NCBI RefSeq assembly: GCF_900113605.1
Contig: NZ_FOPY01000002.1
Coordinates: 62,001 to 126,000, forward strand
Source: Modicisalibacter xianhensis
Lineage (GTDB): Bacteria; Pseudomonadota; Gammaproteobacteria; Pseudomonadales; Halomonadaceae
Length of the DNA stretch: 64,000 bases
Reading direction: 5' to 3'
Made by a program: the position numbers and the translations under genes. Shown piece by piece: positions 3,934 through 36,016 of the stretch. The number at the start of each line of letters is the position of its first letter. Positions within the stretch are counted from its first letter, which is position 1. The notes under the pieces were generated by a model. That model was not told the origin of the DNA. It saw only the letters and a list, made by a program, of their open reading frames with translations, and ran no database searches.

Positions 3934-4263
3934 TTAGACGTCCCAGAAACCATTGTCACCGGCATCATCATTGAAATCGCCGTATTCATCTTCGCTCAAG
4001 TCGCCATTTCCATCTTCGTCATAGGTGTTGAAAACACCTTCACCAAACTCATTTTCATCAAGCATGTTGTCGTCGTTGGCATCCCAAGAGTCAAAGACAC
4101 CTTCATCGTCAAAGCCTGCATCAAACTCTTCATAATCGACGACGCCGTCACTGTTTGAATCCCACTCATTGAATCCAGCGTCTTGAGCAAAGGCACTACC
4201 AGCGCTCAGCAGAGAAAAAGCAATGAAAGTTCCACCGAGTCCATTAATCCAATTGCGCTTCAT
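3934..4263 (-). CDS. Secreted EF-hand calcium-binding protein
   Basis: This 109-residue protein begins with a signal peptide (residues 1-26, ending SAFA-QD). Three 12-residue EF-hand loops follow, at about 35-46 (DSNSDGVVDYEE), 61-72 (DANDDNMLDENE) and 82-93 (DEDGNGDLSEDE), with aromatic residues between them. The mature protein is extremely acidic and has no other domain, so a periplasmic or extracellular calcium-binding role is likely, although no enzymatic role is indicated. The start at 4263 follows AAGGAGG by five bases. It is a single-gene unit with its own terminator. Confidence 0.85.
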   Translation of the reverse strand: MKRNWINGLGGTFIAFSLLSAGSAFAQDAGFNEWDSNSDGVVDYEEFDAGFDDEGVFDSWDANDDNMLDENEFGEGVFNTYDEDGNGDLSEDEYGDFNDDAGDNGFWDV

Positions 4264-4798
4264 GCTTACCTCCTTGCTTGCGAAAGCGATGAGAAACCTT
4301 AACGGCAACTCCTTGTCCGCTTAGAATCTTCCAATAACAATGTCGTCGCAAAACCTTAACCATAACAACCAGCCTAGAAGAAGGCTTTCAGAAACGACAA
4401 GCCAAAAAGGATACTATTTGTCATGAATCGTAACTTTACTTCGGAGATGACTCGCTACCACGATAATTTATGCACTAATTTCCTCATGTCGTCGCAAATT
4501 TCCGCAATAATTAAGATGCTAATATTTTGTATTACTGAAGAAAAAAATGGGCGACATAGAGTCATAAACCTTCTATTTAATAAAGAATCATGGGCTAGGC
4601 TGGACCTAATCTAGCTTCGTTCACTGAGCGCAGGCGTACGGGCGTAACCCCCGTCAGCTCAGCGTCGACCGGAGCAGTTCCAGTTGCCATTCCATCGCCT
4701 GCCCAGATGTTGAGGCCCGGCCGAGGCGTCAGGCTACACCGAAGCTTTTAGGCCAGTGGTAGGTAGCAAGCAAGTGGCCGCTAATCGCTAGCCTGCTA
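4264..4798. other. Gene-free region, AT-rich in its first half
   Basis: No convincing gene is present. Bases 4310-4620 are clearly more AT-rich than the surroundings. A 63-codon frame at 4423-4614 has no ribosome site and no recognisable domain, so it is probably chance. Bases 4620-4795 return to normal composition without an open frame that looks real. The promoter of the EF-hand gene should lie just upstream of 4263. Confidence 0.5.
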
Positions 4799-4816
4799 CG
4801 TAAGCTTATTCTTACA
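4799..4816 (+). promoter_or_regulatory. GacA-type upstream activating box
   Basis: The sequence CGTAAG-CTTATT-CTTACA matches the GacA upstream activating sequence TGTAAG-N6-CTTACA at 11 of 12 defined bases, with the correct 6-base spacer. It lies about 77-94 bases upstream of the inferred transcription start of the GGA-rich RNA. Its position supports control of that RNA by a GacS/GacA system; neither protein is encoded in this window. Confidence 0.75.
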
Positions 4817-4892
4817 TATGAATAGCAGATTTCTTACACGGAATCCCAACCTGCGTTAGTTCCAAAAAAATTGATCTGGATAAAATTCTTTC

Positions 4893-5030
4893 ACGTGGAC
4901 AGGGATGAACTCCACAGGGAACCCGGGCAAGGATGGCCCGAAGCACCAAGGATGCGCGAGCGGGATTGCTCGCGGTTGAGCAGCATGGAGCACTACGCTA
5001 CGCAGCCCGGCCTTTCAGGCCGGGCTTTTT
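4893..5030 (+). ncRNA. RsmZ/CsrB-like small RNA (CsrA/RsmA sponge)
   Basis: No open frame is present, but eight GGA motifs occur within about 95 bases, most of them in hairpin loops. Examples are GTGGA-loop-TCCAC (4895-4915, loop containing AGGGA), CGGGC-AAGGATG-GCCCG (4924-4940) and CGCGAGC-GGGATT-GCTCGCG (4955-4974). Further copies are at 4918-4920, 4950-4952 and 4987-4989. A TAAAAT -10 element (4881-4886) precedes the RNA and an intrinsic terminator ends it. This is the architecture of RsmX/Y/Z and CsrB RNAs, which bind several CsrA/RsmA dimers and free target mRNAs. The 5' end is inferred from the -10 position. The name cannot be settled because these RNAs are classified by structure, not sequence. 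Confidence 0.8.
5005..5030 (+). terminator. Intrinsic terminator of the GGA-rich RNA
   Basis: A perfect nine-pair stem GCCCGGCCT/AGGCCGGGC (5005-5013 and 5017-5025) with a three-base loop is followed by five T residues. It points along the plus strand and ends the small RNA 24 bases before the convergent Crp/Fnr gene. Confidence 0.9.
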
Positions 5031-5053
5031 AATGATTTGATGGCGCCTACCCC

Positions 5054-5839
5054 CTACTTCGTCTTGGCCGAGACACTGCTCTGATCGTCACCCCCCGAGT
5101 CACCGGCCAGCAGCGGATTCATGCCGTCACCGAACTTTTCGGTATCGAAATTCGAGATCTGGTGCAGGCAGGTCAGGTCCAGGATCTCGATCTCGGTACG
5201 GGTCTTCTTGATGACGTTGTCCTCATGCAGCTCCTTGAGGATTCGGCTGACGTGCACGTGAGTCAATCCCAGCGCCAGGCTGATGTGCTTCTGCAGCAAG
5301 GGCAGCGTGAAGCCACTGCCGAGATCGCCGTGCACCCGCTTGATACGGTAATAGATTTCGAGAATGAAGTGTGCGATACGGCAACGTGCGTCGTTGCTCA
5401 GCACGTTGATCAGGCGGTCGGTAATGACGGCTTGCTGCCGCGCGGCAGAGGCATGGATACCCATCGCCAGGTTGGGATGAGCTTCAAAGATGTCCTTGAT
5501 CCGACCGGTCGGAAACGGGCAGATGATACCGTCCGTCAACATGACGGCAGTCGTGTAGTGATGAGGAAGCGTGGCGTCGCGAATCCCCATCAGATCGCCG
5601 GGGATGAAGATATCCAGAACACGAATCGTATTTTCACCCAGGCAATGGTAGGAATAGGCCCAGCCACTGCGCAGCGTGTAGAGCTGCTCCGGCCGCATCC
5701 CCACTGTCCATAGCTCGTGCCCTTTCTTGACCTCTTGCGGGTCCTGCTCCAGCTCGGAGAGTATCTGGGCCTCTCGCTCCCCGATCGTCATGTGGTGCGA
5801 CAGGTTCTGTGTGACGCAACTCTCGAAATGGTCCGCCAT
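5054..5839 (-). CDS. Crp/Fnr family transcription regulator
   Basis: This 261-residue protein has an N-terminal cyclic-nucleotide-binding-like barrel (about residues 20-140, with RSGWAYSYHCLGENTIRVLDIFIPGDLMG split across its strands). A dimer helix and a C-terminal winged helix follow, with the recognition segment ISLALGLTHVHVSRILKEL. The FNR iron-sulfur cysteine cluster is absent at the N-terminus, and the cAMP-contacting arginine/serine pair of true Crp is not evident, so the signal is unknown. The start at 5839 follows AAGGAGG closely. The gene converges with the small RNA and is otherwise alone. Confidence 0.85.
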   Translation of the reverse strand: MADHFESCVTQNLSHHMTIGEREAQILSELEQDPQEVKKGHELWTVGMRPEQLYTLRSGWAYSYHCLGENTIRVLDIFIPGDLMGIRDATLPHHYTTAVMLTDGIICPFPTGRIKDIFEAHPNLAMGIHASAARQQAVITDRLINVLSNDARCRIAHFILEIYYRIKRVHGDLGSGFTLPLLQKHISLALGLTHVHVSRILKELHEDNVIKKTRTEIEILDLTCLHQISNFDTEKFGDGMNPLLAGDSGGDDQSSVSAKTK

Positions 5840-6043
5840 TCTTCCTCCTTGAAGTCTGACCTGCATATTCTGATGAGAATAGTCTATCAGCCCCCATCAT
5901 CTTCTCCATCGGTTGTCATTGGGTTGCCAGATAGAGCCGGGACAGTTCGGTCAGCCCGTGTTTCATCCGTTATAGCGTTTGCCCACCGCTAGCGAAGGTG
6001 TCACGCTCAATGGAGTGTTTTTATCCCTGAATAAGGAGTGGTC

Positions 6044-12901: not shown

Positions 12902-13222
12902 ATGCACAATGAAAGCCTTCTCGAAGATATCCAGGAGGTGAACCTGGCATACCTGCTCCTCGCCCAGCGCATGCTGAAGGAGGACCGGGAAACTGCCATG
13001 TTTCGCCTGAAGATCGACGAGCGCATGGCGGACCTGATGGCATCGCTTTCCATCAAGCAATTGAGCCAGATGGCACGCTCCAATCAGCTGCTGTGTCGGC
13101 TGGCGTATGTCGACCCCGACCAGCTAATGAAACTGTTCGAGAACCCACGTGAACTGGGCATGGCCCAGACCCATGCGGCCCTGCTCATGGCGGCAGACCG
13201 TTTCTCGAGTTCCGGCCACTGA
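12902..13222 (+). CDS. flhD: Flagellar master regulator FlhD
   Basis: This 106-residue protein is Flh[21 protein letters not shown] at the N-terminus, then [21 protein letters not shown] and LAKL-like C-terminal segments ([13 protein letters not shown]). FlhD forms a ring complex with FlhC that activates class 2 flagellar promoters. The ATG at 12902 follows GAGGGA. The leader from 12766 to 12901 holds the promoter; a TGACAT (12847-12852) and an AT-rich TTTAAA (12871-12876) are the nearest promoter-like elements, with imperfect spacing. flhC follows 32 bases downstream. Confidence 0.93.
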
Positions 13223-13254
13223 GTGCCGACCCGGCGCGAGGGCGAGGGCGAGCG

Positions 13255-13809
13255 ATGAAAAGTCTGGTCAGCGAGATGATGCAGGTGCAATTGGCGATCG
13301 AGCTTATCGAGCTTGGCGCCCGCCTGCAGGTACTCGAGACGGAAACCGAGCTGAGCCGTGCCCGGCTGATCAAGCTGTACAAGGAAGTCCGTGGCGTATC
13401 CCCGCCTAAGGGTATGCTGCCCTTCTCGACCGACTGGTTCGTCACCTGGCTGCCGAACATCCATGCCTCGCTGTTCTACAACATCTACCGTAGCCTGTGC
13501 GACGATATTCACTGCGAGCGCCTTGCGGCCTTCGTCAAGGCCTACCGGCTCTATGTCGAGCATGTCATGCTGGAGGCAAACGAACCGGTGCTCGGGCTGA
13601 CGCGTGCCTGGACGCTGGTGCGCTTCTTCGAGAGCGGCATGCTACAGCTATCCCAGTGCAAGGAATGCCGTGGGCCGTTCGTCGCCCATGCCCATAGCCC
13701 CGTAAAGCATTTCGTCTGTGGCATCTGCCAGCCCCCGTCACGTGCCGGAAAGACGGTCAGGAGCCGCCAGAGCAAGTTCGATGACAATCGCAGGACAGGC
13801 ACTGCCTGA
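13255..13809 (+). CDS. flhC: Flagellar master regulator FlhC
   Basis: The 184-residue protein matches Flh[20 protein letters not shown]-like DNA-binding N-terminal half, then [23 protein letters not shown]. The C-terminal zinc site has two cysteine pairs, CKEC (about 137-140) and CGIC (about 157-160). It works as a hetero-oligomer with FlhD. The gap between flhD and flhC is 32 bases, with GGGCGAGCG before the start. Unlike enteric genomes, motAB and che genes do not follow. Confidence 0.93.
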
Positions 13810-33135: not shown

Positions 33136-33178
33136 TTCGTTTTTTCTAACGCAAGCGTAGAGTGGCTGGACAGCAACG

Positions 33179-36016
33179 ATGAGTAACTTGCCGATTCCTT
33201 ACAAGCCTAGGCACCTGAGCCTGACATGGCGGGTCATTGCCCTGAGCAGCTTGCTGCTGCTGGGCCTGGCTTCGCTCTTCACCTATATCAGTCACTTCAA
33301 CTTGACCAGCCAGTTCAAGGAGAGTCGCACAGCTCACCTGGCACGTCAGGAGCGCGAGATCAGGCTGGCCGTGAATCGCTCTGAGGAGAACCTCAGGCAA
33401 TTGGCCAGCCTGTTGGCAGCCTCACCAGGCATGGGAACTGCGCTGGCTTCCAACACACCGGTCTTGGCTGCCGATGCGCTGAACTCACAATGGCCGACGC
33501 TTCAGCTTGAAGCCGGCATAGACGAAATTCTGGTTTTCGATGCCAATGGCGAGCGCATGGCTTCTTGGGGAGCCCCTCAGGAAGGAGTATTCAAGCCTGT
33601 CAGCGACTGGGTCAGGCAAGTCATGTATTCAGAATCGCCGGTCACCAGCCTGCGCTGCTTCCAGGATTGCCGTCAGTATGCTGCGGTCCCAGTACTGGTT
33701 AACGCAGACAGTGCTGGTATGGTTGTCGTGTCTCGGTCACTGGCCGATGTCACCCGGCAAGCCCAGCGCGTTGCCGATAGTGACGTCGCGCTTCTGGTAA
33801 CCGGTCAGCCAGCCTCTTCCGACCTGGGCGAGGAACGTATACTCAAGGCCTGGAACGGTCACCTGGAAACCCTGACACATCAGGCATCCACCCTGCCCGT
33901 GCTTCAAGCTGCAGCGCATAGAAAGTCACTGCCACAACTTGTCAGTAATCCTCTGGTCATTCAGTCGGGCGAGGTGCACCATGAGATAGCCGCCATTCCT
34001 CTTGATGGCGACAACCCACGTCAAAGCTCGGGGTATTTCCTGCTGGTCTCGGACATTACCGGGCAGATCGGCACGATCACTCAAGACACCCGCACTAGCC
34101 TGATCATTTCGCTGGCAGGCTGGATTGCTGCAGAATTATTGCTGTTGGCTATCCTGTGGCGCCCCATGGCACGCCTCAGACGGCTGGCTGATGTTCTCCC
34201 CTCGCTTGCTCGAGGTGGATATTTTCAAGCCAGGGCTGCCGTGGCCCGCCCGAAAGGCCTTTTTTTCGATGAAATCGATGTGCTGGACTCAACGACACTG
34301 GATCTGGCCACGCAACTCGAAAGTTTCGAAGGCGAACTTCGCACGCGCAGCGAGCAATTGACTCTTCGCGTCAAGGAACTGGCGCAGGAGCGCGACTTCG
34401 TCGAAGGGCTGCTGGATACGGCACGCGTCTTTATCCTGACTCAGGATGACCAGGGCCACATTACGATGGTCAACGATTATGCCCTGTCCATGCTTGCACT
34501 TTCCGAAGCGACACTGCTCGGCACGCCCTTCGATAAGGTGTTCCTGCCTCGAGAGGCAATGAGCAATGCCGCGTCCATCGGCTCCCATCAGGATGAGCGC
34601 GTGGTCCGACTACCTGGCCAGTCGGAAAGAATCATTGTGTGGGCACATGCCGCCCTGCCCACACGGCAGAACGAAAAATCCACACGCATTTCGGTTGGAC
34701 TCGACATTACCGAGCGCAAAGCCGCCGAAGCCCGCCTGACCTGGCTGGCGCAGCATGATCCCTTGACCGAGCTTTACAATCGTCGCTTTTTCCAGGAAGC
34801 GCTCGATCGTGCGCTGGAAAAGGACAGCCCAGGGGCCGTGCTATTTCTCGATCTGGATCAATTCAAGGAGGTCAATGAACTCAGCGGTCACCATGCTGGC
34901 GATAGCCTGTTACGCACGGTAGCCGATGCCTTGCATCAAGAGTTTGGCCGCGATTGTGTCATTGCCCGGCTCGGGGGGGACGAGTTTTCCATCCTATTGC
35001 AGAACGCCGATGCCGCACGTGCCATCCAACTTGCCAAAGCGATCGATCGCGTTCTGGACAACATCGGCCTCACCGTGGGATCCCGGCGCCACCGTGCCGT
35101 GGCCAGTATCGGCATCGCCCTCTACCCCATACATGGCGATACGCCTTCCGATATCATGGCCAGTGCCGATGTCGCCATGTACAAGGCCAAGGAAAGCGGC
35201 ATACAACGTTGGCACCTGCTGGAAACGATCCAGCACGCCAAGGATGAACTGCAGCAGCGTGTTTACTGGGTGGAACGTATTCGCAAGGCACTGCGCGAGG
35301 ATGACTTTACGCTCATGGTGCAACCCATCGTGCGTCTGGCCGACCGCGATGTGCGACACTATGAAGTCTTGCTTCGCATGCGTAACGACGATGGTTCACT
35401 GGTCGCCCCGGGCAGTTTCATCCCGATTGCCGAGCGCAGCGGCCAGATCATCCAACTCGACCGGTGGGTGGTGCGCGAGAGCCTCAAGGCGCTTCGCTCT
35501 GTCCAGCACCTGGGTATCAGCCTTGCCGTCAACCTATCCGGACAATCCTTCCATGACGATGGCCTGACCCGTTTCCTCGCCGATGAACTCACAGCCAGCG
35601 GTGCCGATCCACACCATCTGATACTCGAGATCACCGAGACGGCAGCCGTCACCGACTTTGCCACGGCCAGCGGCATGATGCAGGGGATTCGTGAACTAGG
35701 GTGCCGGACGGCCCTGGACGACTTCGGCGTCGGGTTCAGCAGCTTCCACTATCTGAGCCAACTCCCCGTCGATTACATCAAGATTGACGGATCGTTTATT
35801 AGGAACCTGGCAAATAATTCAGATAGTCGTATCATCGTCAAGGCTATTGCCGATATTGCCAAGGGGTTCGGCAAGCAGGCCATCGCCGAATTCGTCGATC
35901 AGGAAACACTGATTCCTTTATTACAGGATTATGGCATTACTTACGGTCAAGGATTTCATTTGGGCCGGCCAACGCCAATGAAAACCGCGTTTGCGAACAT
36001 GCCAGCCGGCACATGA
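33179..36016 (+). CDS. Membrane GGDEF-EAL c-di-GMP enzyme with PAS domain
   Basis: The 945-residue protein has, in order: a membrane helix (about 18-36), a periplasmic sensor region (40-305), a second helix (about 309-330), a HAMP-like linker and a PAS domain (about 400-520). A GGDEF domain follows with RLGGDEFS (about residue 600) and no RxxD inhibitory site. The EAL domain has YEVLLRM for the EAL site (about 728), NLSGQS, EITET and DDFGVGFSS (about 846). The EAL metal and base residues are all kept, although the signature itself is EVL. It could therefore make and degrade c-di-GMP. It follows the porin gene by 43 bases. Confidence 0.85.
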   Translation: MSNLPIPYKPRHLSLTWRVIALSSLLLLGLASLFTYISHFNLTSQFKESRTAHLARQEREIRLAVNRSEENLRQLASLLAASPGMGTALASNTPVLAADALNSQWPTLQLEAGIDEILVFDANGERMASWGAPQEGVFKPVSDWVRQVMYSESPVTSLRCFQDCRQYAAVPVLVNADSAGMVVVSRSLADVTRQAQRVADSDVALLVTGQPASSDLGEERILKAWNGHLETLTHQASTLPVLQAAAHRKSLPQLVSNPLVIQSGEVHHEIAAIPLDGDNPRQSSGYFLLVSDITGQIGTITQDTRTSLIISLAGWIAAELLLLAILWRPMARLRRLADVLPSLARGGYFQARAAVARPKGLFFDEIDVLDSTTLDLATQLESFEGELRTRSEQLTLRVKELAQERDFVEGLLDTARVFILTQDDQGHITMVNDYALSMLALSEATLLGTPFDKVFLPREAMSNAASIGSHQDERVVRLPGQSERIIVWAHAALPTRQNEKSTRISVGLDITERKAAEARLTWLAQHDPLTELYNRRFFQEALDRALEKDSPGAVLFLDLDQFKEVNELSGHHAGDSLLRTVADALHQEFGRDCVIARLGGDEFSILLQNADAARAIQLAKAIDRVLDNIGLTVGSRRHRAVASIGIALYPIHGDTPSDIMASADVAMYKAKESGIQRWHLLETIQHAKDELQQRVYWVERIRKALREDDFTLMVQPIVRLADRDVRHYEVLLRMRNDDGSLVAPGSFIPIAERSGQIIQLDRWVVRESLKALRSVQHLGISLAVNLSGQSFHDDGLTRFLADELTASGADPHHLILEITETAAVTDFATASGMMQGIRELGCRTALDDFGVGFSSFHYLSQLPVDYIKIDGSFIRNLANNSDSRIIVKAIADIAKGFGKQAIAEFVDQETLIPLLQDYGITYGQGFHLGRPTPMKTAFANMPAGT

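Follow-up and report, generated by a model that had tools for sequence, protein, structure and literature searches.

The window analysed here is a 64-kb stretch of Modicisalibacter xianhensis DNA, in which a predicted CsrA-sponge RNA of about 140 nt occupies positions 4893–5031 (+). Its start was deduced from a -10-like element, TAAAAT (4881–4886, +), and its end lies at about 5031, after an intrinsic terminator composed of a 10-pair stem (5004–5026, +) and a T-run; R1, our covariance model of the family (see below), matches 4888–5033 with 135.9 bits, the third best score in the genome. Upstream, a pattern match identified a GacA box, CGTAAGCTTATTCTTACA (4799–4816, +), with 11 of 12 defined bases, followed by a degenerate GacA site (4821–4838, +), of which one half, CTTACA, is intact, at the place where most copies of the family have their proximal box. 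Between this site and the -10 lies CAACCTGCGTTA (4847–4858, +), a copy (8/12 consensus) of a palindrome, nTAWC-N4-GTTAA, centred at about -40.5 and regarded as a putative CRP/FNR-type operator. About 20 bp beyond the RNA and convergent with it, a gene for a CRP/FNR-type regulator (5054–5866, -; Pfam HTH_Crp_2 and cNMP_binding) encodes a candidate co-activator. The RNA is also adjoined by a gene for a small, secreted-looking protein of EF-hand type (3934–4308, -), for which NCBIfam returned only weak, sub-cut-off matches, including lanmodulin (E 8e-4).

An earlier note on this DNA had described the locus as a GacA upstream box matching 11 of 12 defined bases, a -10 element, eight GGA motifs and a strong terminator, with no open frame. 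The box, the -10 and the terminator are present as described, and no ORF of at least 60 aa overlaps 4615–5053 on either strand, but the GGA count was off by one (nine in 4799–5030, with seven, at 4897–4987, within the predicted transcript), and the conserved palindrome near -41, the dozen or so paralogues of the RNA in the genome and the connection with CRP/FNR-type genes were overlooked. The note had also pointed to flhDC and several c-di-GMP genes: FlhD and FlhC are indeed encoded at 12902–13809, and one ORF with a GGDEF motif was noted (33161–36014).

Within the 64 kb, the GacA box is the better of two matches with at most two mismatches (0.54 expected), and the 143-nt windows richest in ANGGA on both strands begin here (5 motifs vs. 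at most 4 elsewhere). Two GGA of the window RNA lie in hairpin loops according to a local hairpin test. A promoter scan of 4300–6000 found no sigma-70 hexamer pair (-35/-10). Genome-wide, GacA boxes with up to two mismatches do not outnumber matches to a reversed control pattern (48 vs. 62), so that the box alone proves little. The region 4888–5032 folds at -58.4 kcal/mol (z -2.18; 4 of 200 dinucleotide shuffles as good), while the longer 4799–5060 is unexceptional (z -0.96; 33 of 200 shuffles as good). Because the single-sequence fold only moderately beats shuffles, comparative evidence is needed, and it is this evidence (relatives, hairpin and promoter conservation) that takes the window feature beyond chance.

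A family of related RNAs in Halomonadaceae

The genome of the window (4.36 Mb, 45 contigs) contains a single perfect GacA box (C30:8123), downstream of which lies an RNA of the same layout as in the window; two boxes with one mismatch (C16:120609 and C30:64283) were dropped for want of a convincing RNA downstream, as judged by eye. When 275 genomes of the family were searched at the DNA level, 16 matched, some by terminator or coding sequence alone, and a further paralogue came to light in the genome of the window. Several of the matched loci (e.g., L023, L027, L028, L030, L031) were judged by eye to be terminator or coding matches and not RNAs.

The R1 model was built from 14 sequences, window copy included, and its E-values are rough; matches over the model end only are terminators and were left out of copy counts. 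Across the 275 Halomonadaceae genomes, R1 matches 173 at E ≤ 0.01 and 137 at E ≤ 1e-5 (hand count). At the latter threshold, the genome of the window has 13 matches, which correspond to 12 places: four within 3.1 kb (C30:5243, 6455, 7027, 8189), then C25:54410, C28:66888 (the window copy), C28:327891, C31:84198, C19:334576, C16:219775, C27:19494–19760 (covered by two matches that overlap) and, weakest of all, C21:4052 (33 bits and few GGA). In 15 hand-picked relatives, the matches at E ≤ 1e-5 number 19, 14, 11, 11, 10, 10, 10, 8, 7, 6, 4, 2, 1, 1 and 1; the two highest counts are those of sister genomes, G145 (18 places once an overlap is merged) and G150 (14), and one of the ten matches of G134 is an antisense terminator match. 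Tandem arrays occur as well, with four copies in a row in each of the 3-kb loci L049, L053, L055 and L060.

Some of the neighbourhoods are worth describing. The four sponge RNAs found in 3.1 kb of the genome of the window (L038, C30:1–14000) stand among CRP/FNR and SRAP-domain genes (identified by Pfam) and UmuC/UmuD-like genes (by eye). Two copies have ORFs close by that, by eye, resemble a recombinase (C27, L102) and an integrase (C21, L106), a hint that some copies travel with mobile elements. In a relative, a Guanidine-II riboswitch match just above threshold (L049, 531–580, +) precedes the tandem array.

Beyond the family, R1 was run on 293 genomes of the order, 32 of which match at E ≤ 0.001: nine from the same family (about 12 included) and 23 from the approximately 281 others, the latter never exceeding 33.9 bits. 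Among the 11 out-of-family hits that we read, three (L158, L165, L169) look by eye like GGA RNAs and eight do not; L165 adjoins a PrrB_RsmZ match of 38.5 bits (threshold 44). The exact pattern of the central hairpin matched 12 stretches of named genomes. Eleven of these belong to records of Halomonas, Billgrantia, Litchfieldella or Modicisalibacter and all score at least 66 bits with R1, while the twelfth, from a Chitinophagaceae record, is without any R1 match. As far as tested, the family appears confined to Halomonadaceae.

Anatomy and class of the RNAs

For the comparative analyses, we retained 65 distinct copies, i.e., 64 of 74 R1 matches plus the C27 copy taken from its start, after discarding eight repeated places, the second half of the C27 copy and one antisense terminator match. 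These copies hold 477 GGA, of which 220 (46%) fall in the loops of local hairpins, compared to 20% in dinucleotide shuffles, and the number of GGA per RNA (7.3) is higher than in single-base shuffles (4.3). In 50 of the 65 copies, a GGA loop is closed by a central stem at least 6 bp long, with 31 different stems in all (single-base shuffles: 0.5%). The hairpin presenting the GGA covaries, in that the stem varies while the loop is kept. All these statistics overstate independence, since both the copies and the genomes are kin to each other.

Such an arrangement of GGA in loops is the one expected of a CsrA sponge. The layout of the RNA, its covariation and its copy number are read from sequence, and from them we infer that the locus is transcribed and that its product binds CsrA; the window RNA is very probably a CsrA sponge. 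The earlier note had assigned it to RsmX/Y/Z-type RNAs, and as a functional class this assignment is supported by the GacA box, the GGA hairpins, the terminator and the presence of gacA and csrA in the genome. As membership of a listed family, the label "RsmZ/CsrB-like" is not supported: an Rfam covariance search returned 0 matches in the window at gathering score, RsmY scoring 14.7 bits vs. a threshold of 57. The Rfam matches obtained in the window at E ≤ 10 are all sub-threshold, mostly on the terminator, and were rejected. Likewise, the Csr/Rsm models (RsmY, PrrB_RsmZ, CsrB, CsrC; clan CL00106) gave no match at threshold in 20 loci holding relatives. We would therefore describe the family as unlisted in the Rfam families tested, expanded and, in its predicted sponge function, Rsm-like in working.

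Two conserved elements in the promoters

GacA boxes with at most two mismatches precede 36 of the 65 copies (vs. 0.7% of single-base shuffles), and they favour two places about 22 bp apart: counted from model position 1, the centres of 24 boxes fall between -57 and -61, and those of 11 between -77 and -83. The window copy has its box at the distal place, with half a box at the proximal place. A box with at most two mismatches is absent from the other 29 copies, which counts against the joint control proposed below.

In the genome of the window, gacA adjoins uvrC and its product scores above the cut-off of the GacA equivalog, and two csrA genes exceed the Pfam cut-off; moreover, a GacA orthologue is present in 20 of the 20 genomes searched, including those of genera g23, g7, g20, g5 and g12. 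GacS was sought through the BarA/GacS domain PF09984, which was not found in the genome of the window, a result that counts against the joint control proposed below; the Gac sensor of the lineage may have another input domain. A GacA input to the sponge promoter is likely. The second csrA gene (L072/L100, C28:327578–328040) is divergent from a sponge RNA, and the gap of about 160 bp between them holds two GacA-like boxes, with two mismatches each, and a palindrome, an arrangement that may possibly form a joint csrA-sponge control unit.

The other element is the palindrome, with the profile nTA[AT]C-CYRG-GTTAA. A score of at least 9/12 is reached in 45 of the 65 copies, compared to 2.2% when the stretch in question is shuffled, and the centre stands 33–38 bases above model position 1. 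Of the 14 founding copies, 10 have it 29 bases above the -10, i.e., near -41. Among 13 further copies, nine reach 9/12 or more, one of these being off position. Fourteen of the 65 copies, among which several have a good GacA box, fall below 8/12, and these count against the joint control proposed below.

Some genera have the palindrome and no GacA box. This is the case of all six full-length copies read in g23 (L064, L132, L147, L151, L153, L154), of the one read in g7 (L134) and of both read in g20 (L135, L157): the palindrome matches 8 to 11 of 12 positions and no GacA box is found within three mismatches. In g5, it is off position in one of two copies, and the sole copy of g12 is without it. 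Since it is kept in genera whose copies are devoid of the box, the palindrome has a wider spread than the GacA box, even though it is not universal.

Two half sites separated by 4 bp and centred near -41 correspond to the geometry of CRP/FNR sites, which fits best among the sites of the regulators that we compared. The palindrome is likely to be a real activator site; that this activator is of CRP/FNR type is about as probable as not.

CRP/FNR-type genes near the RNAs

The closest PDB match of the regulator encoded beside the window RNA is FNR, followed by FixK2 and CprK, while it scores below every NCBIfam cut-off. In the 11 genomes with both an RNA list and a CRP list, 12 of 64 CRP/FNR-type genes (the window copy among them) have an RNA less than 1 kb away, where random placement predicts 0.37. 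The remaining 52 are away from any RNA, and a CRP gene is nearby in 5 of 55 loci of other genomes and in 1 of 11 named-genome loci, which counts against CRP/FNR control. The linkage recurs without being general.

All 20 RNA-bearing genomes examined have a homologue of the window regulator (E ≤ 3.2e-45), vs. one of ten RNA-less genomes, the latter belonging to genus g8 and having no R1 match. The exception, G036 (1.4e-42), counts against the association; of the other RNA-less g8 genomes, G040 has a fragment (3.2e-20) and the rest range from 1e-11 to 1e-14 or yield nothing. Within g8 only, the homologue is present in 10 of 10 RNA-bearing genomes vs. 1 of 10 RNA-less ones. These counts come from hand-picked, related genomes that are not independent, the RNA-bearing ones of g8 being copy-rich.

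The readable recognition helices of the RNA-adjacent regulators are VHVSR, VHVNR, VHTNR, IHVNR, VHMNR or IHTNR. In FNR, the Glu of the recognition helix reads the G of TTGAT, and the loss of this Glu in the RNA-adjacent regulators would fit a TAWC half site. Two other regulators of the genome of the window (L108, L112) share the VHVSR helix yet adjoin no RNA, which counts against the pairing, while another one has an FNR-like helix, LETVSR.

At face value, these observations might be accommodated by an ordinary GacA-driven Rsm family that has undergone copy expansion, the palindrome being the site of a regulator from another family or a feature of the core promoter, and the CRP neighbours owing their place to shared history. 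The 36 boxes at two fixed distances agree with this explanation, as do the CRP genes that mostly lie remote from the RNAs and the few loci elsewhere that have one. We consider it rather unlikely, given the excess of CRP genes within 1 kb, including copies in five genomes that were checked individually, the way in which the homologue tracks the RNAs within g8 and the CRP/FNR geometry of the half sites described above.

The window copy itself could be a decaying paralogue of little or no activity within a real family, as its half proximal GacA site and its 8/12 palindrome might indicate; this is improbable, for its distal box has a single mismatch and stands where other copies too have a box, its R1 score is among the highest of the genome, and its hairpins, -10 and terminator are kept. 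Finally, many dispersed and sometimes tandem copies, two of them near recombinase- or integrase-like ORFs, would also be expected of a GGA-hairpin repeat spread by a mobile carrier, or the RNA might be a base-pairing sRNA, but stems that covary around a kept GGA loop, promoter elements and a terminator belonging to each copy, and the presence of csrA and gacA render both ideas very improbable.

A proposed model of dual activation

The reading that we prefer is one in which GacA and a CRP/FNR-type activator jointly drive the CsrA-sponge family, and we hold it with measured confidence. Both promoter elements, the CRP linkage and the co-occurrence are again matters of sequence, from which we infer control by GacA as well as the identity and the signal of the second activator. 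In this model, the window locus would produce an Rsm-type RNA that titrates CsrA, holding it through A(N)GGA motifs, some in the loops of hairpins and others in the intervening stretches. Its promoter, in which no -35 hexamer is recognised, would depend on activators: GacA would act at a box centred at about -65 or about -87, while the palindrome near -41, i.e., in class II position, would be bound by a second activator. The latter would most likely be a CRP/FNR-type protein from the subgroup whose recognition helix resembles VHx[SN]R, to which the regulator encoded beside the window RNA belongs. Production of the sponge would then free the CsrA targets. With both a GacA box and a palindrome, the sponge would join the Gac system to a second, perhaps respiratory or redox, signal.

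A bolder version, which we put forward tentatively and with less than even confidence, would make a CRP/FNR-type sensor at the palindrome the primary input of the sponges in Halomonadaceae, GacA having been added or kept in some lineages only, while the RNAs multiplied, some paired with their own regulator gene, into a set exceeding any in the accessible part of a 2020 review. If so, a respiratory, redox or similar signal would reach CsrA without Gac in the genera devoid of the box.

Should the palindrome prove to be a CRP/FNR site, cell physiology would have a second, direct way of reaching CsrA, and the activation of copies that lack a GacA box would be accounted for. With a dozen or more paralogues in a single cell, the question of why bacteria maintain many similar sponges becomes open to experiment. 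Halomonas serves in industry as a host for stored polymers, a setting in which CsrA control may matter.

Comparison with known systems

In searches of the literature on Halomonas CsrA, Gac, Rsm and sRNAs, covering titles and abstracts of mostly non-subscription sources, no paper describing this family was found. For Halomonas anticariensis, the accessible part of the 2020 review reports GacS-GacA and a predicted CsrA and gives the sRNA as "Unknown", for which the present family is a concrete candidate in Halomonas. A 2026 preprint modelling the CsrA of H. hydrothermalis calls the regulated pathways uncharacterized and does not mention CsrB in its main text.

In kind, the RNA belongs to what is already known, as it probably works like RsmX/Y/Z. 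It resembles RsmX, RsmY and RsmZ (PrrB) of Pseudomonas (RF00195, RF00166) in its length, in GGA located in and between hairpins and in its intrinsic terminator. The novelty lies in the copy number and in the make-up of the promoter: in contrast to the Pseudomonas RNAs, the family reaches no Rfam threshold, occupies 12 places in one genome and has a conserved palindrome near -41. We know of no such palindrome in Pseudomonas rsm promoters. The GacA box consensus is shared, as shown by the upstream activating sequence of Pseudomonas rsmY, TGTAAGCATTCTCTTACA, given in a legend of PMC4353343; this legend further lists a "dnr" regulator within the rsmY regions, reminiscent of the CRP/FNR neighbour seen here.

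Paralogous sets are known as well. According to the accessible part of PMC7366521, Azotobacter vinelandii has nine such RNAs (RsmZ1-7 and RsmY1-2) and P. syringae seven (RsmX1-5, RsmY and RsmZ), all CsrA mimics under GacA, as proposed here; nine is also the largest sponge set named in the accessible part of the 2020 review, compared to the 12 counted here and the 18 and 14 found in sister genomes by sequence model.

As for the second activator, the window regulator matches FNR, FixK2 and CprK in PDB, and the geometry of the palindrome fits that class. Where the FNR helix (VETISR) has Glu, the window regulator (HVHVSR) has V, and the half site is TAWC as against TTGAT. The proposed targets set the regulators of this family apart from FNR, FixK2 and CprK, for they would be sponge RNAs.
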